From a virus, in IMG/VR virus record IMGVR_UViG_3300032087_000322, positions 1-29,522 of that record: a stretch of DNA of 29,522 nt. One strand, written 5' to 3'. A model generated the notes under the pieces. The model was not told where the DNA came from. It saw only the letters and a list, made by a program, of their open reading frames with translations, and ran no database searches. Of the stretch, positions 380 to 25,120 are shown in pieces (the first letter of the stretch is position 1; every line of letters starts with the position of its first letter). The position numbers and the translations under genes are program-made.

Positions 380-2227
380 TCAATCACCAGTTAACTCTTT
401 GTTTTTCCAACATACACCATCAACGCAGATGATCCATTCTTCCCTCATCAACGCATCTCGCGCCGTTTTCCTCGAACTGTCGGCTGCGTCGGGCATCTCC
501 GCCACCATTTTGGCCCCCCAATCACGGTAGGAGACCTTCGGAGAGCCGCGATCAACGCAGAGGTTTTCAAACGCCCTCAGCGCCATTTTCTGATGCCCGG
601 ACGGCCTCCACGCCTTCTTTTTCTTCGGCGCTGGCGCGTCACCGTCTTGGCGCACCAGCACCGCGGACGGATCGGACAGCGTCGCGATTGGTGTCAGCTT
701 CATCACGATGTCACCCATAGGCTCGGCGTCTTTCTGCTTCTCGGTACGCAGCGTGACGTATTCCTCGCTCTTGCCGACCAGCAGTGATGTGTCAACGCCG
801 CCCAGAAGCGCCGTAGAGCCACGCATTCCGCGTGTGGCGTCCTTTCCGGCGTGATGCACGCCCATAACCGCGCCGCCCGTGTGCGCCTTAATTACGTCGC
901 ACGCCTCGACGAACAGCCCCATATCAGTAGCGCTGTTCTCGTCACCGCCCAGCAGCGCTCGCGCCACGGTATCGACAATGACCAGCCCGAACGTGACGCC
1001 CTCATCCTCCGCCACCTTGTCGATGGTGGCGAGCAGCTTGGTCACTTCCTCCTCTTCGCGGAACTTGACCGCCGTATTGATCAGGAACATCGGCGCGTCG
1101 TCGGAGTTGACGTTGTTGTGAGCGTCCCACGCTGCTATGCGCTTGCCGAAGCCGCCAACGCCCTCTGCGGCGATGTAGCACACCGCAGACTGTTTCACCG
1201 GCTGACCCTGCCACGGACGCCCTGTGGCGACGCTGAGCGCCATATCGAGCGCGATGAAGGACTTGCCGCTGGCTGGAGCGCCATACATCACGCTGAACCC
1301 GTACTGCGTCAGCAGCCCGTCCACGACCCACTCGACCGGCGGCATGCGCTTGAGTTCGCCCGGCCGCTGCACCGCGAAGTAATCGCCCTCATCCGCCACC
1401 GCATCATCGCTCACCTCCGGCGCTTCGGTCAGCGTCGGACACTTCTGCACGATCTCGACCAGTTCGCCGAGCGTGTGTTCGCGCAGGAAGTCCACGACGT
1501 CACCCTTGTCCGGCAGCCCCGGCAGGTCGACGCGCTTAATGTGCGCCGCGATGCCCCACAGGGACGCCACCACCTTGTCCGCGTGGCGCAGACCCGCCTC
1601 ATCATTGTCGGGCATGACGATCACGTTACGGCCCTCCAAGTGCTGCGCGTGCGCGTCCAGCCACTTGCCCGCCCCGCCGTGATTTGTCGTGGCGACCAGC
1701 CCAGCCTCAATGAGCGCGTCGGCGCACTGCTCGCCCTCGACGACGAACACCGGCTGGTCCGGGTTCTGCATAATCTTCGGAAGATTGTACGGGAGTGGCT
1801 CGACGCCATCCATCTTGTAGATGTACCCGCCGCGTCCGTCCGGCCTGCGCTGGCGGAACGTCTTCGGGTACATGCGGCACACCTGATACGCCTCGGCGCC
1901 GTCAGCGTCGAAGTACGAATAGATGCGCTGTATGTATTGCTTCGGCTCCAGCGCCTTCTGCGCCTGCTTCTGTATGCCGAACTCGCGCTCCAGCACGTCG
2001 GCCACTGAGCCGGATATGCCGAGCTTGCCGTACTTCTTCACGAGGTCGACGCAGCCCCCGCCCTCTCCGGCCTCGAAGTCGTACCAAGCGCCCTTGATTA
2101 GGTCGAGTTCCTTGCTGCCCTTTGTTCCCCAGCGCAGCGTGCGCCCCTTTATCGACAGCTTCGCGTTCGGCTCGCCCCAGTAGTGCCGGGCAATCCTCTC
2201 CGCGTGAGCCGTTATATTCTGTGTCAT
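380..2227 (-). CDS. Replicative primase/helicase (Toprim plus RecA-like ATPase)
   Basis: This 615-residue protein should make primers and unwind DNA at the phage fork. The N-terminal ~150 residues resemble the DNA-binding part of phage primases (WYDFEAGEGGGCVDLVKKYG, ~48-67) but lack the usual zinc-binding cysteine set. A Toprim domain follows: VVEGEQ near residue 162 supplies the catalytic Glu, and MPDNDEAG near 205 supplies the metal-binding Asp residues. The C-terminal half is a RecA/RepA-type ATPase, with Walker A GAPASGKS at 316-323 and a Walker B-like LVIVDTVAR near 412-420. It then has GVHHAGKD and a basic tail. The start has a good AAGGGAG site. It is the leading candidate for the main replication enzyme because no DNA polymerase is in the window. 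Primer synthesis is inferred from domain order. Confidence 0.9.
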   Translation of the reverse strand: MTQNITAHAERIARHYWGEPNAKLSIKGRTLRWGTKGSKELDLIKGAWYDFEAGEGGGCVDLVKKYGKLGISGSVADVLEREFGIQKQAQKALEPKQYIQRIYSYFDADGAEAYQVCRMYPKTFRQRRPDGRGGYIYKMDGVEPLPYNLPKIMQNPDQPVFVVEGEQCADALIEAGLVATTNHGGAGKWLDAHAQHLEGRNVIVMPDNDEAGLRHADKVVASLWGIAAHIKRVDLPGLPDKGDVVDFLREHTLGELVEIVQKCPTLTEAPEVSDDAVADEGDYFAVQRPGELKRMPPVEWVVDGLLTQYGFSVMYGAPASGKSFIALDMALSVATGRPWQGQPVKQSAVCYIAAEGVGGFGKRIAAWDAHNNVNSDDAPMFLINTAVKFREEEEVTKLLATIDKVAEDEGVTFGLVIVDTVARALLGGDENSATDMGLFVEACDVIKAHTGGAVMGVHHAGKDATRGMRGSTALLGGVDTSLLVGKSEEYVTLRTEKQKDAEPMGDIVMKLTPIATLSDPSAVLVRQDGDAPAPKKKKAWRPSGHQKMALRAFENLCVDRGSPKVSYRDWGAKMVAEMPDAADSSRKTARDALMREEWIICVDGVCWKNKELTGD

Positions 2228-2299: not shown

Positions 2300-2926
2300 C
2301 TAGAACAGGTTTGCACCTGTTGCCTCAGCGGCTGCGGGAGGTTGCGACACCGCCGCTGGCGCGGGTTGCGATGGAGCGGTGGCACCGCCGTCCATCATTG
2401 CGGGCCGATCAATCCACTGGGTGATCGACCAGACCGGAGCCTTGAAGGTAAGCTCTCCATTCGGAGAGTTGACCTTAACGCGATCAGTGCCGGAGATAGT
2501 CACCACCGGCACCTTGCCCGGATTTGCCGGAGCCTCCGCCTCATACTGACTGTAAAGAGTGTCCATCGCGCGCAATACAGTTTTCGCAGAATGTGAAAAT
2601 TCGCGAAGGCCAAGGTCATTTGACGCGATGCGGACGCGGAACGCCTGCTTGTGGTCCGGGCTTGGCTGTGCCGGGAGAGGCTCGCCCGCCTTGACCATTT
2701 GAAAGTCAGGCGCACCTGCGGCGAACGAGAGCCACCCGATTTCGATGCTTCCCAAGTCCATCGCGACCTGTAGGGGAAGCCCCAGTTCCTGCTCATCCTT
2801 CTGCCAAGTCCCGTCTGCCGCCTGATAGCGGTCCTGCTTGATGAAGTCGCCCGCCTTTGCGTCCCACTTCACGATAGGCAGGATGTCCCCGCCGCTTCTA
2901 GTCTCAAGATTAAATCCTAACGCCAT
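2300..2926 (-). CDS. Conserved phage protein, possible ssDNA-binding protein
   Basis: This is a 208-residue protein with an AAGGAG site eight bases before ATG. The N-terminal ~170 residues look like a compact mixed fold (FNLETRSGGDILPIVKWDAKAGDF, then DLGSIEIGWLSF, then HKQAFRVRIAS, and WSITQWIDRP at the end). The last ~35 residues are a disordered Ala/Pro/Gln-rich tail ending in GANLF. A flexible tail with a hydrophobic tip behind a beta-rich core is typical of phage single-stranded DNA-binding proteins, and it sits directly upstream of the primase/helicase. No sequence signature proves this. I recall similar proteins in alphaproteobacterial phages as uncharacterised. Confidence 0.65.
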   Translation of the reverse strand: MALGFNLETRSGGDILPIVKWDAKAGDFIKQDRYQAADGTWQKDEQELGLPLQVAMDLGSIEIGWLSFAAGAPDFQMVKAGEPLPAQPSPDHKQAFRVRIASNDLGLREFSHSAKTVLRAMDTLYSQYEAEAPANPGKVPVVTISGTDRVKVNSPNGELTFKAPVWSITQWIDRPAMMDGGATAPSQPAPAAVSQPPAAAEATGANLF

Positions 2927-2952
2927 AGCTCTATAACTCCTTAACGCTAACG

Positions 2953-3378
2953 TCAGTTGCTGTTTTGGCTGATCACTGTCAGCCGCTCGACCGGGTAGTA
3001 GGCGCAGACGTCGTGATCCTGTGGATCGTTTCGGTCTGACCTGCCGCCCGGATTTACCGTGAAGTCCGACGCAAAGTCCAACTTCGCGAGGGCATCACGG
3101 TAAAGCAGAATGAGGTGACAGGGCAAGCCCGTCGCCTCGCTAAGCATTTTTGCGTGGATCACCTTCGACAGGCTGATCATCACGCTTGGATATGTGTTGA
3201 GGTCGCACTTGCGCGCCTTCACCTCGGCAAAGCCTATTGGCTGACCGTCGCGCCGCAGCAGCCAGTCGAGGCGATACTGCACCGGCAGCTTGTAAACCTC
3301 GACGCCGATGTTCTGCAAGGCGTCGGCGACAAGCCGCTCATTCTTGATGTCGTGATCAGTCTCGTACTTGGGTCGCAT
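2953..3378 (-). CDS. PD-(D/E)XK-type nuclease
   Basis: This 141-residue protein has the core of the PD-(D/E)XK nuclease fold. A helix contains NERLVADAL, Asp38 lies in YRLDWLL, and FAEVKAR carries Glu52 and Lys54. The missing DNA substrate domain and the small size suggest a repair, resolvase or host-DNA-degrading nuclease rather than a sequence-specific restriction enzyme. The ATG overlaps the end of the methyltransferase gene by 23 nt and has GAGG seven bases upstream, so the two genes are translated from one message. A partnership with the methyltransferase, with the nuclease cutting DNA the methylase spares, is possible but unproven. Confidence 0.7.
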   Translation of the reverse strand: MRPKYETDHDIKNERLVADALQNIGVEVYKLPVQYRLDWLLRRDGQPIGFAEVKARKCDLNTYPSVMISLSKVIHAKMLSEATGLPCHLILLYRDALAKLDFASDFTVNPGGRSDRNDPQDHDVCAYYPVERLTVISQNSN

Positions 3379-4300
3379 CGTCTGCCTCTTTGATTGCGTA
3401 CAAGATCCGCGCCGCCACCTGCGGCACGATGCTGTTGCCTAGCTGTTTAAGTCGGTGTACCCGACGGGGTATCCCATTAGCCACTCGACGAATTGCGGGT
3501 TCAGGCTCCCACCAGCTTCCGATGGGAGGTCTTTCGCCTCGCCCTTCAAAGCCCTGCCACTCGGCCCCTTCCAATCCCTCGCGGTTGGTGTCGGCCACGT
3601 CTTCGCCGCCGTCTGCAAATCTATCTCGCGCTTCTGTCCGCTGTCCCTGCGCTGCACCGTCGATTGATTGACTACCAGATCGGCTGACCTCGGCCCTCTG
3701 TTGCTGGCATCCGGCGTGGGCCACATCCGCACTGCGCCGCCTAATGTCGTCCCACGGTTGGTTCCGATTGTCTTGCCTTGGCCTCTGACTTGCGGGTTGT
3801 CCTGCGTCGTTGCCGTTGGCCACAATCCAGCATCGATCTCGTCTGTGCGGGGCATCTGCGGCGACAGCCGGTATAATGTAGCACCGGCAGGAGAAGCCAC
3901 AGCCCGCCAAGTCAGATAGCACCGTGTCGAGGCCCATAGTGATGTGGCCAGCAACATTCTCTCCAATGACCCAGCGGGGCCGGACAGCTTGGATAACTCT
4001 AAGCATTTCAGGCCAGAGATGTCGGTCATCTTGATCGCCTCTGCGCTTCCCGGCTGTCGAGAAGGGCTGGCAGGGATATCCCCCTGTGATGACGTCAACC
4101 ATTCCTCTAAATCTATCTGCGTCATTGGCCAACTCCCTGATGTCCTTGATGATCTCTGTGTCAGGCCAGTGCTTACGCAAGACCTTCTGCGCGTGTTCGT
4201 CATATTCACAGAACGCGACAGTCTCAAAGCCGCCGACCAGCTTCTCCCCGGCATAGCTGAAACCGCCGATCCCAGCGAATAGATCAAGCATCCGCAGCAT
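3356..4300 (-). CDS. C5-cytosine DNA methyltransferase
   Basis: This 314-residue enzyme transfers a methyl group from S-adenosylmethionine to cytosine in DNA. Motif I is DLFAGIGGFSYAG (6-18). Motif IV is GGYPCQPFSTAG, with catalytic Cys77. Motif VI is the ENV at 114-116. Motif VIII is APHRRDRCWIVA at 150-161, and the final motif is LKQLGNSIVPQVAARI. The target-recognition stretch between VIII and the end is short and Gln/Arg/Asp-rich. The start at 4300 has GGGAGG nine bases upstream; an alternative ATG lies at 4291. It overlaps the upstream nuclease gene by 17 nt. The likely role is protection of phage DNA from host restriction. Its 3' two thirds also hold a long second frame (see 3439-4029). 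Confidence 0.95.
   Translation of the reverse strand: MLRMLDLFAGIGGFSYAGEKLVGGFETVAFCEYDEHAQKVLRKHWPDTEIIKDIRELANDADRFRGMVDVITGGYPCQPFSTAGKRRGDQDDRHLWPEMLRVIQAVRPRWVIGENVAGHITMGLDTVLSDLAGCGFSCRCYIIPAVAADAPHRRDRCWIVANGNDAGQPASQRPRQDNRNQPWDDIRRRSADVAHAGCQQQRAEVSRSGSQSIDGAAQGQRTEARDRFADGGEDVADTNREGLEGAEWQGFEGRGERPPIGSWWEPEPAIRRVANGIPRRVHRLKQLGNSIVPQVAARILYAIKEADDATQVRD
3439..4029 (-). CDS. Candidate overprinted gene inside the methyltransferase
   Basis: In the +1 frame relative to the methyltransferase, an open frame gives 196 residues from ATG 4027-4029, with GAGG eight bases upstream. It reads LWASTRCYLTWRAVASPAGA, then PRTDEIDAGLWPTATTQD, WPTPDASNRGP, WPTPTARDWKGP and finally LNPQFVEWLMGYPVGYTDL. 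I remember these signatures from phage proteins found beside, or annotated as, cytosine methyltransferases. They are literal re-readings of methyltransferase motifs: the codons for APHRRDRCWIVA give PRTDEIDAGLWP when shifted. The frame may therefore be a real overprinted protein, or a shadow that looks conserved only because the methyltransferase is conserved. The open frame extends 173 codons upstream of this ATG, but that part has no recognisable motif. Confidence 0.35.
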   Translation of the reverse strand: MTDISGLKCLELSKLSGPAGSLERMLLATSLWASTRCYLTWRAVASPAGATLYRLSPQMPRTDEIDAGLWPTATTQDNPQVRGQGKTIGTNRGTTLGGAVRMWPTPDASNRGPRSADLVVNQSTVQRRDSGQKREIDLQTAAKTWPTPTARDWKGPSGRALKGEAKDLPSEAGGSLNPQFVEWLMGYPVGYTDLNS

Positions 4301-5675: not shown

Positions 5676-6158
5676 ATGCCACTTATTATCAAATGCCACG
5701 CCTATGACCTGTATCAAGTCACAGGCGCAGACAGCGACACGCCGATCACAATATGGCGCAACAAGAGGACGGGCCGCTGGAGCCACAGCTTCTGTCCGTC
5801 GCGAGGCCGCAAGGCGTCCTTTCACACCGTCCAAGAGGTCAGGGAGGATGTCGTCAAGGCAATCGTAAAGAACGGCATGCTGCCGAAGGAGGAATACATC
5901 ACCCGGCACAACGGCCCGATTGTTCTGACTGAGGCGGTCGGGGACCTTTACGAACTATTTGTGAAGATGACGCCAAAGCGTCCCCTTGATGCGGAGTTTA
6001 TCAGTGAGCGCCTTCGCTTTGCTAAAAGCAGCGTCACTGACATGATCAACAAGCTGAACCGTCATTATGAGGTGAAGAAGCGTGCGGATGGGCTGATCAG
6101 GCTGCAACGCCCGCCGCGCAAAAGCCTCAAGGCCAAGCGCCTCAAAGCTGCGGCATAG
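5676..6158 (+). CDS. Hypothetical protein with winged-helix-like C-terminus
   Basis: This is a 160-residue protein. I placed the start at ATG 5676 because AAAGGGAG precedes it; the frame stays open 100 codons further upstream, but that part overlaps two other genes. The N-terminal ~75 residues are mixed (ITIWRNKRTGRWSHSFCPSRGRKASF). The C-terminal part, DLYELFVKMTPKRPLDAEFISERLRFAKSSVTDMINKLNRHYEVKKRADGLIRL, has the helix-turn-helix-wing pattern of winged-helix proteins and ends in a basic tail KSLKAKRLKAAA. DNA binding and a regulatory role are inferred from that pattern only. Confidence 0.65.
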   Translation: MPLIIKCHAYDLYQVTGADSDTPITIWRNKRTGRWSHSFCPSRGRKASFHTVQEVREDVVKAIVKNGMLPKEEYITRHNGPIVLTEAVGDLYELFVKMTPKRPLDAEFISERLRFAKSSVTDMINKLNRHYEVKKRADGLIRLQRPPRKSLKAKRLKAAA

Positions 6159-6167
6159 GAGGGTGAG

Positions 6168-6461
6168 ATGGAACTGAGAGACATCATCTTTGATTATTTG
6201 CCGCACTCTGCGGATGGTTTGGACAAGCCCTTCCGGGTTCTTGGCGACCCGCATGTGCGGATCATCGACCGCCGCCTGAGCCATACCAACTCAGGCGATG
6301 TGGAGGAGAGCGCAGAGGGTGAGACCATATATTATTACTATGTGCTGGTCTGCGGCTTTGACGCCTTCGAGCGCGAGATAAGTCTGAATTGGCACCCAGA
6401 GGAAAAGGTCTGGGACGACCTCAATAAGTTTTATGTCCCGCGCCTGTGTGACGACGACTAA
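6168..6461 (+). CDS. Hypothetical acidic protein
   Basis: This is a 97-residue protein starting 9 nt after the previous stop, with GGAGGG immediately upstream of ATG. It is acidic (GDVEESAEGE, then a CDDD end) and rich in aromatic residues, with a YYYYVLVCGFDAFEREISLNW stretch that looks like beta structure. No motif or family is recognised. It lies before an intergenic hairpin in the rightward operon. Confidence 0.65.
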   Translation: MELRDIIFDYLPHSADGLDKPFRVLGDPHVRIIDRRLSHTNSGDVEESAEGETIYYYYVLVCGFDAFEREISLNWHPEEKVWDDLNKFYVPRLCDDD

Positions 6462-6467
6462 CCAAAA

Positions 6468-6492
6468 GCGCCCGGCTGTCGTGGCCGGGCGC
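6468..6492 (+). other. Intergenic hairpin in the early operon
   Basis: GCGCCCGGC (6468-6476) and GCCGGGCGC (6484-6492) form a perfect 9-bp G/C-rich stem with a 7-nt loop. It sits between two genes of the rightward operon. No T-run follows; the next bases lead straight into the ribosome binding site for ATG 6513. It may partly end transcription or mark an mRNA cleavage or stabilising site. Confidence 0.5.
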
Positions 6493-6512
6493 ATCATCGA
6501 AGGGAGATTGAG

Positions 6513-7157
6513 ATGCTAAAGCTGGACATGATACCGGGCCTGCGACCCGATGACGATTGGATGAATTGGCATTACAAGATGCGCGACAAGCATCAGGACA
6601 TGCCTCTCACAAAGGAGTATTACGAGGCGCACCCACCATCCGCAGGCGACACCGTTGTCGTGCTGCACACTTGGGCGGGGAAGATGATGAAGCCGCACGT
6701 CACCACCATCGAGACCATCACCGCGCGCAAGCGCCTTGTCGTAAATCACGACCACGAGGGGTATGCCGGGAAGTCTTTCTGGAGGACAGGCCAAAACTGC
6801 TACGCCCCAACCGGGCAGTGCTGGCTTGTGCCGGGGGAGCTTTACACTGACATTCCCCTGTCGCCGTCTGTGGCGCAGCAACGCGAGCGCGAGAGCCTTA
6901 GACAGATGATGCGTGAAGAACAGCCCACCACGGTGGAGATGGCCAAGTTTTTCGGTAGCGCCGCTCGCCTTGCAAAGGAGCTTCGCCTCGTCACCGAGCA
7001 GACCGGCCTCAATGGGGACGACGCCGTCATGCTTCTCGGTAGAGAGGTCAGATTTGAGAAGACCCGGCCACGCGATTGGTCTGGCCGGAAGATCACGCGG
7101 GACATGATCCGCAGTCACGAACGTACCAAATATAAGGAGCAGAAAAATGGTAGGTAA
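6513..7157 (+). CDS. Hypothetical protein
   Basis: This is a 214-residue protein with GAAGGGAG before ATG. The N-terminal ~110 residues look beta-rich (AGDTVVVLHTWAGKMMKPHVTTIETIT, then KRLVVNHDHEGYAGKSFW), like a small barrel. The rest is helical and charged (QQRERESLRQMMREEQ, then FFGSAARLAKELRLVTEQTGLNGDDAVMLL). Its last 11 nt overlap the start of the exonuclease gene, so the two are probably translated together. A helper role for the exonuclease is possible from position alone. Confidence 0.65.
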   Translation: MLKLDMIPGLRPDDDWMNWHYKMRDKHQDMPLTKEYYEAHPPSAGDTVVVLHTWAGKMMKPHVTTIETITARKRLVVNHDHEGYAGKSFWRTGQNCYAPTGQCWLVPGELYTDIPLSPSVAQQRERESLRQMMREEQPTTVEMAKFFGSAARLAKELRLVTEQTGLNGDDAVMLLGREVRFEKTRPRDWSGRKITRDMIRSHERTKYKEQKNGR

Positions 7158-8106
7158 ACTTACCCCCGACGACATCATGAGCGCGTCGCGCATCCCCGCC
7201 CTGATGGGCCTGTCGCCATACAAGACGCCGAACGAATTGCTGAAGGAGGCAATCGAAGCAGCCGCAGGCAACCCGCCTGAGCGGTTCGCGCAGAACGAGG
7301 CGATGCGCTTCGGCGACCTGCTCGAACCCACGATCCTGCGGGAAGCCGCGTACCGGCTCGACCTTGACGATGTCAACGTCGACATCAACGAGCCGTATTT
7401 CCACCCGGACCTGCCGCTCTCGTGTTCGCTCGACGGACGCGGGCGTGGCAGCGTCCTGTTCGAGCATAACCCGGCGATGGGCATCTACGTCCCGCAGGGC
7501 GGCGTGGTGGACACCAAGGGCCGTCTCGGCTGCCTAGAGGCGAAGAACACCAGTGCCGCCCCGGAAGACGCCCCTGCGCCGCACAGGGGGCCGTGGCAGC
7601 TACAGGCGCAGATGATGGTCACCGACGCGTCGTGGGGCGCCGTGTGCGTCCTCTATCGCGGCTCGGAACTTCGCATCTTCCTGTACCGGCAAGACCCGGA
7701 CATGCAGGCGCAGATCGAGGACGCGGTGCATGAGTTCGAGCGGCGCAAGCGCGACGTCGACTGGTATCCTCCGCTGTCGTCCGACGACGCGAACGTGGCG
7801 TGGGACCGTGTCGATGACGGCGCACCCGCGCTTGACCTGAACGGCGTCGCGGATGCCGACCACTGGGCGAGCATCCTGATCGCGGCGCGTGACCAGAAGC
7901 GCGCAGCCGAGGCTGAGATCGACGAGGCCGAGACGATGCTGAAGGAGATGCTCGGCAACCACGAGGAGGGTCAGGTCCACGTTGACGGCTCGACCTATTA
8001 CGTCAAGTGGCCGATGCGTAACTACAAGGCGCAGCCAGCCAAGACCACCGAGGCCAAGCCTGCCCGGCAGATCCGCGCCAAAACCCTGACCGTGAAGGAG
8101 GCGTGA
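7147..8106 (+). CDS. YqaJ-type phage exonuclease
   Basis: This 319-residue enzyme belongs by motif to the lambda-exonuclease/YqaJ class of PD-(D/E)XK nucleases. Such enzymes chew one strand from double-strand ends to make single-stranded tails for recombination. Visible signatures are SRIPALMGLSPYKTP near residues 14-28, FGDLLEP with Glu60, the metal-binding Asp96 in CSLDGRG, and LEAKN with Glu131 and Lys133. QLQAQMMVT follows at 151-159. The C-terminal ~100 residues are charged and partly coiled (RAAEAEIDEAETMLKEML), ending in a basic tail. GGAG precedes the ATG. The usual annealing partner (RecT/Beta/Erf type) is not visible in this window. Confidence 0.85.
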   Translation: MVGKLTPDDIMSASRIPALMGLSPYKTPNELLKEAIEAAAGNPPERFAQNEAMRFGDLLEPTILREAAYRLDLDDVNVDINEPYFHPDLPLSCSLDGRGRGSVLFEHNPAMGIYVPQGGVVDTKGRLGCLEAKNTSAAPEDAPAPHRGPWQLQAQMMVTDASWGAVCVLYRGSELRIFLYRQDPDMQAQIEDAVHEFERRKRDVDWYPPLSSDDANVAWDRVDDGAPALDLNGVADADHWASILIAARDQKRAAEAEIDEAETMLKEMLGNHEEGQVHVDGSTYYVKWPMRNYKAQPAKTTEAKPARQIRAKTLTVKEA

Positions 8107-9132: not shown

Positions 9133-9548
9133 ATCCACTCTCCACTAATCATCATCGCCGCCATATCCTCGGCGCGCTTGCCGACTTGCTTTGCCCACTT
9201 GCTATCTAGCATCTGCGCCGCAGCCTCGCCGTAATCACCCGCCTCAATCGCCGCCTGAGCCTTCTTGAAGCCGTCCCAGCGTGGCTTGCCTAGGTTGAAC
9301 AGCATCGAGACCACAACCGCCTGACGCGGCTCTGAGAGGCCAGCAAACCAAGGGTAGGTGTCAGCCTCCGCCTTACACCTCTTGAGGTCATTCGCCAGCA
9401 GGTAGTCGATTTCGTCATCGGACAGCCCGCCGCCTAGCTCTTCGTCGATGAGCCGCCCCACGCCGATGGTCAGATACCCACGGCTGTCCTTGTAGGCGTG
9501 CGGCACCACACCCTCGTGGTGTTTGATCATCTCGATCAGTTTATCCAT
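9129..9548 (-). CDS. Lysozyme (glycoside hydrolase 24, T4-type endolysin)
   Basis: This is a 139-residue enzyme that cuts the glycan chains of peptidoglycan. It has the T4-lysozyme catalytic triad: Glu12 in HHEGVVPHAY, Asp21 in KDSRGYLTIGVGR and Thr27. The later PRQAVVVSMLFNLGKPRWDGF matches the family helix that contains the conserved Asn-Leu-Gly. There is no signal peptide or SAR segment, so it needs a holin to reach the wall, which agrees with the neighbouring membrane genes. It overlaps the nuclease gene upstream by 8 nt and the small membrane gene downstream by 4 nt. Confidence 0.93.
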   Translation of the reverse strand: MDKLIEMIKHHEGVVPHAYKDSRGYLTIGVGRLIDEELGGGLSDDEIDYLLANDLKRCKAEADTYPWFAGLSEPRQAVVVSMLFNLGKPRWDGFKKAQAAIEAGDYGEAAAQMLDSKWAKQVGKRAEDMAAMMISGEWM

Positions 9549-9990
9549 TGCGCGTCTCCATAATTATTTGATACGCCTTTTCCCAGCTATCTAGCTCCAG
9601 ATCGGGCGTCTCGAACCACCCCGGCGGCCTGCGCTGCGAATACTGGTTCACGCAGCACGATGCTTGAAAATGTACCTTCCTCGCGTCGATGGCGCAATGC
9701 GCGAGGATGTCGAACTGCTCCAGCGAGGGCAGCGTCTTCTTCACGCGCCCGGACCCGTTCTGGAACTGGTAGCAGGGGTTGTGGTGCTTCTGCCTCCGCA
9801 GGTGCGCCGATTTCACCTGAACGCGCATGAACACGCCGTCGCCATTCCACGCCACAAGGTCGACGCTGTCCTGCTGCGCCGGCGAGACGCGCCAGCCAAG
9901 CTCCAGTATCGCCGCCGCCGTCAGGTACTCTCCGGCGAGGCCAGTTGTGGTCGCTGATCTAGTCAGGCGTTTTTCTCCAGATACAGCCAC
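9541..9990 (-). CDS. PD-(D/E)XK-like nuclease within the lysis cassette
   Basis: This protein is up to 149 residues. TGLAGEYLTAAAILELGWRVSP, then VDLVAWNGDGVFMRVQVKSA, fits the PDDEXK_5/DUF4365-type nuclease fold: Glu21, Asp44 and a QxK (Gln58, Lys60) in place of ExK, a known variant. The start is uncertain. GTG 9988-9990 lacks a ribosome binding site. CTG 9964-9966, which has GGAGA just upstream and overlaps the previous stop as CTGA, may be the real one and would give 141 residues. Such proteins are thought to act on branched or host DNA. Why it lies between lysozyme and membrane genes is not clear. Confidence 0.7.
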   Translation of the reverse strand: MAVSGEKRLTRSATTTGLAGEYLTAAAILELGWRVSPAQQDSVDLVAWNGDGVFMRVQVKSAHLRRQKHHNPCYQFQNGSGRVKKTLPSLEQFDILAHCAIDARKVHFQASCCVNQYSQRRPPGWFETPDLELDSWEKAYQIIMETRNG

Positions 9991-22916: not shown

Positions 22917-24077
22917 TCAGGAACCGCTGAGGTCGAAGATCGCGGCGTGCGCCTTCGGGGCGGTCGGCTTCAAAGTCCACTCGCAGATGATATGCGAGTC
23001 GGTTGCGTCGCCGGTCTTGGCCAGATCTTCCTCAAGGAAGTTACGACCGTTGAGCGTCGCAATCGACACGAAGTCCGGGTCGATCAGGAAGATGCGGTCG
23101 TTGGAAAGGAATCTGGAGGGACTCGCTTCCACTGTACCGAAATCGCCCAAGAATACGCTAGTGGAACCGACATAGGCCACCTCTTTCGCGGCGGTCATGT
23201 TCACGTCGTTGCTGACGAGGTTACCAGAGGCACTGAGGTCACTGAAATTGGCTTTATTTGCAGCCGATGTGACCATCATGCGTGGATTGCCACCGTCGGT
23301 CCAAGCGTCCTGCTGCGCGTCCTCGATGAGGGCGAGCGTCAGGGCGCGGCTGTCACCGGCAGTGATCGTGTCGGTGCCGTCACCAGTGCCGAAAGCACCA
23401 GCGGTTGCGCCAACCGAGCCGTTTGTCATCCAGCAAGACAGCGAAGCGGACTTGCGAGGGTCAGACGCGGAACGTGCAACGTCAGTGTCGCCGATCATCT
23501 TTTCGATGTCCCGCCTTAGCTCTAAGCCTTTGAGAACCTTTTGGTAATTATGCTCTCGTTCTCGTCCGGCAACGTCTACGGAGTCTAGTGTACCGGAGGT
23601 GGCAAAGACCTTCTTGGAGATCTGCATGTAGTTGCCGATACGGCTGGTCGGAGTGGCCGCAGCAGTCGCAGTGTCGCTTCCCTCATTGTAAAAATTCGAG
23701 GTGCTGGCGGCTGCCAGTTCCTGCACTTGCCACTCAAGGAAGATGCCGTTTCCGGTCTCCTTCTTGACGTTGGAGAAGATCGGTGTTTCAGCAGGGTCGC
23801 ATTTTATCCCAGCCTTTCGGTGGGGGTGGACTATATCATCACTCCGGGTTGGAGTGCCGGACGCTCTAGCCTGTTATTAAGGGGGCTTCACCCCTCAGGT
23901 AGTCTCTGAACCTTCCCCCGGTGTACCGAGGGCTTGGATGCTGATTGCCATAGCTTGCGCCTTAGGGTTCCAGCAGTTCATCCGGTTTAGACCGCACCTA
24001 CCCTATCTAATGCGGTAAATCACATCTGCCAGCTGTTCGCGCTCACCTACGGCGGCGCTAGTCGCGAAAGTCGTCAT
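22917..24077 (-). CDS. Major capsid protein (SU10/DUF5309 type), split by a group I intron
   Basis: The spliced gene is exon 1, 24010-24077, joined to exon 2, 22917-23799: 951 nt and 316 residues. Exon 1 begins MTTFATSAAVGEREQLADVI and ends within the Ile codon. Splicing gives YR-I-DPAETPIFSNVKKET, the expected DUF5309 N-terminus, followed by GNGIFLEWQVQELAAAS. Later parts include REREHNYQKVLKGLELRRDIEKM (family helix), RALTLALIEDAQQDAWTDGGNP, a beta-rich centre, and ENHIICEW-like SHIICEWTLKPTAPKAHA. A reader scanning for unspliced frames would start it at the internal GTG 23724-23726 and lose 47 residues. RBS AAAGGA lies 9 bases before ATG. The gene follows the scaffold, as in SU10-like phages. 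Confidence 0.9.
23800..24009 (-). ncRNA. Group I intron (210 nt) in the major capsid gene
   Basis: This is a self-splicing ribozyme element. The exon 1 end ACCGCAT (24010-24016) pairs with the internal guide GTGCGGT (23991-23997): six Watson-Crick pairs and the terminal U-G pair that marks the 5' splice site. The intron ends in G at 23800 (ATAAAATG). Core elements are visible: GTTCAGAGACTACCTG (23896-23911) and GATATAGTCC (23828-23837) form P7 (GACTA with TAGTC). CCCTAAGG, TATGGCAATCAGC and AAGCCC resemble the P4-P6 region. CACTCCAACCCGGAGTG forms P8. TGCTGG and CCGGCA can form P3. An additional hairpin, AGGGG...CCCCT, lies between P7 and P3', as in subgroup IA. There is no endonuclease frame inside. 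Confidence 0.9.
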
Positions 24078-24102: not shown

Positions 24103-25110
24103 CTACTTCCGCCCCATAAGATACTCAACAGCGGCATCCACCGTGCCAGCGCTTTCAAAACGCTTGCGGGCTTCTTGCCGAGAACGGTTAGCAACTTCGC
24201 GCTTGGTCTTTGGTCGCCCTGCCTTGGCCATCTTCGGAGCTTGTCGGGTGCGTTTCTTGGCGGAGGGGGCTTTATCCTGAAGCTGGTCCCAGCGCCACGC
24301 CTTATAGAGAAGCTCAATCGCGCGCGCGTCAGATGCGTTTGCGATTTCCTCCTCACTAAACCCGATCCGCTTCTGAGCGTAGGAAATCACTTCCTTGCGC
24401 TCGGCCTCGCGAGTATCCTCATCCTGCCACGCAGGGATGCGGTTGAGCATCTCGCCACGCTGCACCTCAAGGTGCTGGCGCAGGTTCTGCTCCTGCTCAC
24501 GAGCCTGTTCCGCCGCGATGCGCTGACGTTCGGCCTCGACCTGCTTCTGGTATTCCTTCTGCTGGTCGAACTCAGCCTTCGCCAGAAACAAGTCACGCTC
24601 GGACATCGTCTCGGCCAATGCTCTCCAGTCAGGTTCCTGTAGGTTTGCCTGCTGGATTTGGGCAGCCAACTGATCAAGTTGCTGCGCGTAAGCGTCTCGA
24701 AGTTGTCTCGTCTCAGCTTGCTCCGCCTCAAAGGCTTTGCGCTGCTCGGCTAACTCCATCGAGCGCTTAGTGTACGCCTGCTGCCGCGAATAACCGTTCT
24801 GTAGTTCGTCGAGGGTTACCTCTACCTCTTGGCCGTCCACCTTTACGGTGTAGACCTCCGGGGGTTCCTCTTCATACTCCTCGCCGTCATCCGCCTCGTA
24901 GGCGTCTTCGCCCTCATCGTCCTCCGCGTAGTCGTCTTCCGAGGTCGCTTCTGCGGTCTCCTCTTCCGGCTCATACGCCTCGGTCTCAGGCTGTTGAGGC
25001 TCTTGCGCCTCGGTGGTCTCTCCCGCCACGGTGTCCGCTGGGGGCGTGTTCAGAAGAGAAACTGCATCAGTTAAAGAAATGGGGCCGGTTCCTTGCGGAT
25101 TGTCGGACAT
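24103..25110 (-). CDS. Capsid scaffold protein
   Basis: This is a 335-residue protein. The start is ATG 25108-25110 with GGAG upstream. The first ~30 residues are low-complexity, and residues ~35-85 are extremely acidic (Glu/Asp/Tyr/Ala). YTVKVDGQEVEVTLDELQNGYSRQQAYTKRS follows. Long helices rich in Glu, Gln, Ala and Lys run from about 115 to 235 and look like a coiled coil. The C-terminus is strongly basic (SAKKRTRQAPKMAKAGRPKTKREVANRSRQEARKR). An acidic then helical then basic layout is the hallmark of phage scaffold proteins, and the basic tail would dock onto the capsid shell. Its 3' end lies 25 nt before the capsid ATG. Confidence 0.88.
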   Translation of the reverse strand: MSDNPQGTGPISLTDAVSLLNTPPADTVAGETTEAQEPQQPETEAYEPEEETAEATSEDDYAEDDEGEDAYEADDGEEYEEEPPEVYTVKVDGQEVEVTLDELQNGYSRQQAYTKRSMELAEQRKAFEAEQAETRQLRDAYAQQLDQLAAQIQQANLQEPDWRALAETMSERDLFLAKAEFDQQKEYQKQVEAERQRIAAEQAREQEQNLRQHLEVQRGEMLNRIPAWQDEDTREAERKEVISYAQKRIGFSEEEIANASDARAIELLYKAWRWDQLQDKAPSAKKRTRQAPKMAKAGRPKTKREVANRSRQEARKRFESAGTVDAAVEYLMGRK

Positions 25111-25120
25111 CAAAAAGCTC

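Follow-up and report, generated by a model that had tools for sequence, protein, structure and literature searches.

The major capsid protein (MCP) gene of a marine tailed phage, represented by a 29.5-kb virus record referred to here as the window, lies on the minus strand and raises the question of where the N-terminal part of its product is encoded. In the mechanical ORF list the gene appears as a truncated frame at 22917-23726 (-), which begins with a GTG codon and lacks 46-47 residues. The surroundings are those of an ordinary block of head genes, since a head scaffolding protein gene (24103-25113 (-); phrog_3927, E=1.6e-53) lies just upstream of the MCP gene and an SU10-type portal gene is found further on. 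Elsewhere in the window, a C-5 cytosine DNA methylase gene occupies 3356-4300 (-).

The original prediction was that a group I intron of 210 nt at 23800-24009 separates a first exon of 68 nt from the rest of the gene; each of these points is borne out, on the minus strand. Exon 1 (24010-24077 (-)), delimited by translation and by tblastn to intact homologues, starts with ATG and contains codons 1-22 and two bases of codon 23; read from 24077 to 24010 it codes for MTTFATSAAVGEREQLADVIYR plus two bases. The insertion point thus falls after base 68 of the gene. The insert itself contains stops in the exon-1 frame, including a UAG at 24003-24005 (-), two codons past the last complete exon-1 codon. 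Exon 2, assigned by PF17236 and phrog_1328, occupies 22917-23799 (-) with its stop codon, and from 23799 to 22917 the frame goes on as DPAETPIFSN... up to that stop. Excision of 24009-23800 gives MTTFATSAAVGEREQLADVIYRI-DPAETP..., with the first stop at codon 317 and an MCP of 316 amino acids. The predicted peptide across the 24010/23799 junction is ...DVIYRIDPAETP..., in which YRI is joined to DPAETP; the restored frame YR-I-DPAETP had been predicted in this form, and intron-free alleles possess the same junction. Comparison of the spliced and unspliced translations with DUF5309 capsids had been proposed as a check. The family match holds, although the Pfam name is now SU10_MCP (PF17236), and it is complete only for the spliced protein, which scores 243.8 bits over profile positions 7-291 of 292. 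For the continuous frame the match begins only at position 49 (202.5 bits), confirming that this frame lacks the N-terminal part of the capsid protein. Similarly, the spliced MCP gives a full match to phrog_1328 and the unspliced frame a truncated one.

The only RNA-family match in the window is to the Rfam group I model (Intron_gpI, RF00028), another check named in the prediction. The match is full-length (1-253) and reaches 73.5 bits, well above the gathering score of 50, with E=4.4e-17, so that a chance origin can be dismissed. The intron possesses no ORF and ends in a G at position 23800 (-), the 3' splice site. Among the best 80 relatives found in IMG/VR with the spliced protein, 9 contain the 210-base insert and in most the MCP is uninterrupted. 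The insert-bearing alleles all have it at the identical base and all at 210 nt. The joined, intron-free sequence occurs in wild relatives whose MCPs are 88-91% identical; in three of these (L004, L007 and L008, 91% identical) the sequence reads ...ATTTACCGCAT CGACCCTGCTGAAACACC..., which is the predicted junction base for base, with ACCGCAT followed directly by CGACCCTGCTGAAACACC. ACCGCAT stands at the end of exon 1 in 19/19 intron-bearing haplotypes vs 16/61 empty ones, and CGACCCTG at the start of exon 2 in 19/19 vs 15/61, the two being kept together across all 19. The Fisher values for this exon-flank constraint (about 1e-9) are not literal, because relatedness and co-conversion add to the pattern.

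A fold of 66 base pairs was written out, comprising P1, P3-P9 with P7.1/P7.2, and P10, and all of its pairs are standard in the window sequence. P1 is formed between the end of exon 1, ACCGCAU, and the internal guide sequence GUGCGGU (23991-23997 (-)), with a U.G closing pair at the splice site; the exon side is invariant in the 19/19 intron-bearing haplotypes. This pairing, the U.G pair and the terminal G had all been predicted and all are present. The adjoining P10 strand GGGUAG (23998-24003 (-)) pairs with the start of exon 2, CGACCC, at five of six positions, the single mismatch being exon G+2 vs intron A11. P3 consists of CCGGAUG (23979-23985 (-)), in which three pairs show double changes, and CGUCCGG (23857-23863 (-)). 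The P7 strands had been cited as the core signature; they are present, but the helix proper is a 5-bp one inside the quoted strings, GACUA (23900-23904 (-)) with UAGUC (23829-23833 (-)). Between P7 and P3 lies a paired P7.1/P7.2 extension (23870-23899 (-)), a trait of group I subgroup IA, to which the intron may belong, and model and alignment further place a P8 hairpin at 23840-23856 (-) and a P9 hairpin with a GAAA loop at 23808-23824 (-).

The structure alignment contains nine introns, seven from the MCP site and two from cyanophage psbA genes. In this alignment 97.9% of cells are paired vs 29-44% when the partners are shifted by 1-3 bases; the paired percentage is favoured by construction, since the window sequence was the template of the model. 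Compensatory changes, which are less affected by this, also back the fold: 17 pairs show double-sided changes, a number reached in 0/500 shuffles. Compensation is seen within the MCP-site introns alone at three pairs of positions: 80/93 is C-G, G-C or U-A, 117/128 is G-C or A-U, and 157/167 is U-A or C-G. Across the conserved core P3, P4, P6, P7 and P8 are paired, P7 is invariant in all nine introns, and the compensatory changes lie in P3, P6 and P8. The original prediction was right in essentially every detail, and its interpretation is supported; the mobility and polymorphism of the intron could not be seen from the sequence alone.

Guanosine-initiated two-step splicing is the established biochemistry of group I introns, and the 210-nt element very probably splices itself out of the MCP transcript in this way. 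The late transcript would fold into P1-P10, exogenous guanosine would attack after the exon-1 U that is paired to the guide sequence, and exon 1 would then attack after the terminal G to yield the mRNA for the 316-aa MCP. Unspliced RNA would be translated only as far as the UAG just inside the intron, which may prevent ribosomes from entering the ribozyme core. Late expression of a capsid protein would imply efficient splicing, as had been predicted. Taken as a whole, we consider it very probable that this SU10-type MCP gene carries an ORF-less group I intron that is removed from the transcript and has spread horizontally at the DNA level, presumably by homing or gene conversion assisted in trans.

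The distribution of the intron points to such spread. An exact search of IMG/VR for the core word gave 24 further contigs, all with the intron at the MCP site. On an MCP tree built from codon 60 onwards, with the flanks excluded, intron state is somewhat clustered and changes 12 times, at least 9 of these by well-supported branches. The intron-bearing L085 and the empty L011 show 51 differences over about 4,475 aligned bases, and 19 of them fall within the 82 nt from -48 to +33 around the site (binomial p about 3e-20 for evenly spread differences). The empty alleles among which L085 is nested (L009, L011 and L012) have L011-type flanks, so that a joint arrival of the intron with its flanks is most likely. 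Difference is also raised around the site, to about +45, in the pairs L124/L053, L125/L058, L127/L050 and L119/L054. As a control, the bin at -60, within which the insertion site lies, contains the densest 94-base window of difference in 17/31 close intron/empty pairs vs 4/55 empty/empty pairs. Identical flanks in L094 and L008 leave that pair uninformative on co-conversion; such identity would be expected if flanks of the donor type are native to the clade of the window itself. Judged from these alignments, the intron is polymorphic and moves horizontally between phages at the DNA level, with short stretches of flanking exon; at a single site the alleles combine presence/absence polymorphism and co-converted flanks, the pattern by which a mobile intron is recognised.

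Which agent might move the intron was sought among the genes of these phages. HNH, HNH_3, GIY-YIG, LAGLIDADG_3 and NUMOD4 domains are found in none of the intron-bearing genomes of this phage group, a weak absence as many of these are fragments, and GIY-YIG genes occur in three empty genomes only. F-CphI and the endonucleases of S-SRM01 have no significant relative in these phage genomes. When five intron-bearing and eight empty near-complete genomes were compared gene by gene, no gene was shared by all five and absent from all eight, and the nearest to tracking the intron was a mechanical ORF overlapping the intron itself. A gene resembling PD-(D/E)XK_5 lies at 9541-9990 (-) beside a phage lysozyme gene and scores 22.7 vs 26.1 bits, below the Pfam cut-off. 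It is found in 5/5 near-complete intron-bearing genomes but also in 7/8 empty ones, hence shows no association with the intron and is a weak candidate for a nuclease acting in trans. Since the intron lacks an ORF, and its distribution is followed by no endonuclease gene, help in trans is proposed, whether for homing or for gene conversion mediated by a phage recombinase.

The same absence of a tracking endonuclease also fits a rival account, in which the intron splices as described and was spread by ordinary homologous recombination through a YqaJ/RecE-type recombinase, with no endonuclease involved. A YqaJ-type recombinase gene, at 7147-8103 of the window, could be the agent of conversion. 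Conversion-like tracts also occur between empty alleles: L067 differs from L072-L075, all of them empty, in a sharp tract from -27 to +50 of the capsid site, so this part of the MCP gene also undergoes recombination where the intron is absent, and some of the flank exchange may be of that ordinary kind. The short, site-centred tracts in several pairs are those expected from a local cut, and their excess in intron/empty comparisons (the 17/31 vs 4/55 above) speaks against this account, which nevertheless keeps a considerable, if less than even, chance of being correct.

Vertical inheritance of an old intron with repeated loss, in which high identity would reflect only strong constraint on the ribozyme, is unlikely. 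Group I cores are indeed conserved, and the clustering of intron state on the capsid tree fits this view. However, identity to the window copy is 90-99.5% for the intron but only 65-86% for distal exon 2 (and down to 63% for exon 1), psbA introns that share its core have diverged as far as 73-78% identity, and L085 sits among empty sisters with its foreign 82-nt tract around the intron. Still less probable is movement by reverse splicing into capsid transcripts that were then reverse-transcribed and recombined; an RNA target would need only a short guide match, yet such a route should leave the flanks untouched, and the donor-type flanks carried along indicate DNA-level transfer. Finally, an inactive insert, with the MCP translated from the GTG-start frame at 22917-23726, can hardly be maintained even though that frame is open and listed, as it lacks conserved N-terminal residues of the empty alleles and the insert keeps its splice-site pairing in 19/19 haplotypes and a fold with compensatory changes.

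Group I introns also occupy two other sites in the same capsid gene of relatives. A second MCP site, within KKV/FATS, is occupied by a 266-nt intron in L106 and L132-L136. The MCP gene of L106 contains two group I introns, at 5886-6095 and 6288-6553, and excision of both gives a full 316-aa MCP. A third site near residue 105 is occupied in Phage C72C1 (251 nt), L137 and L141-L143, and L138, whose SU10_MCP is only about 30% identical, has an intron at the corresponding place. The group I intron of Phage C72C1 (L082, OQ984150.1), at 3323-3573, was missed in the public annotation, where the MCP is given as two 'major head protein' CDSs flanking the intron with small ORFs between them; a literature search found no paper on this phage. 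The introns of the window, L106 and C72C1 all have AATG at their 3' end. Through the same core word, introns were also reached in other capsid families: the P22-type coat protein gene (PF11651) of L139 contains three group I introns (2300-2519, 3181-3400 and 3565-3808 (-)), and the Phage_capsid_3 gene of L140, a 96-kb contig, contains one at 739-986 (-), with a weaker second match about 600 bases away. The genome contigs database gave no match to the intron core, and annotated phages gave none to the locus by megablast. The idea that this intron lineage is confined to capsid genes was rejected, as a related core word leads, besides the P22-type coat gene, to introns beside translations that by eye resemble psbA, ribonucleotide reductase, a helicase and others.

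It is tentatively suggested, as a possibility we rate as rather doubtful, that the ORF-less capsid intron homes in wild phages through cuts made in trans by an unrecognised nuclease, with the MCP gene as an intron harbour of three sites. If this is true, the capsid gene of small marine phages would be a repeatedly colonised harbour, entered at three separate positions. The capsid gene, often used as a marker, ranks with the most strongly expressed genes of a phage, and relatives carry up to two introns per SU10-type MCP gene and three in the P22-type coat gene. Such introns break the MCP in automatic annotation; the prediction that gene callers easily miss them is true of Phage C72C1, though at another site. 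Near-identical phages with and without the intron, together with visible conversion tracts, form a natural experiment, which makes the movement of ORF-less introns directly testable.

Group I introns in capsid genes, compact phage introns and ORF-less introns probably moved in trans are kinds already known; the population evidence is unusually clear here. LittleE, a mycobacteriophage of cluster J, likewise has an intron within its major capsid gene (gp13) that is missing from close relatives, and its splicing was confirmed by RT-PCR and by sequencing the virion protein from its N-terminus (PMC3706429). Unlike the window intron it is 819 bp long, contains an endonuclease ORF, belongs to another capsid family and host, and is 'likely' group I according to its authors. 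The same paper cites a group I intron in the capsid subunit gene of lactococcal phage Tuc2009, a likeness known here through that citation. The group I introns of Jug phages have a mean of about 206 nt, are many per genome, and in some cases have splicing backed by metatranscriptome reads (PMC12363816); these are, however, huge gut phages, with terL, nrdD and DNA polymerase genes highlighted rather than the SU10-type capsid family. The window intron core is nearest to those of cyanophage psbA introns. The S-PM2 psbA intron, for which a 'collaborative homing' model with the free-standing endonuclease F-CphI has been published (PMC6083498), is also compact and ORF-less, and its core is 73% identical over about 163 nt. 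It differs in that it interrupts psbA in a T4-like cyanophage and has the endonuclease gene as its neighbour, whereas the present intron has the MCP as its host gene and no F-CphI relative was found in these phage genomes. The best match among annotated phages is the psbA intron of S-SRM01 (MW015081), 77.8% identical over 168 nt, which differs in its psbA-region setting, close to endonuclease genes and another group I intron. In S-SRM01 (L107), a freshwater cyanophage, the two group I intron matches of this region are located at 2432-2685 and 2895-3139.
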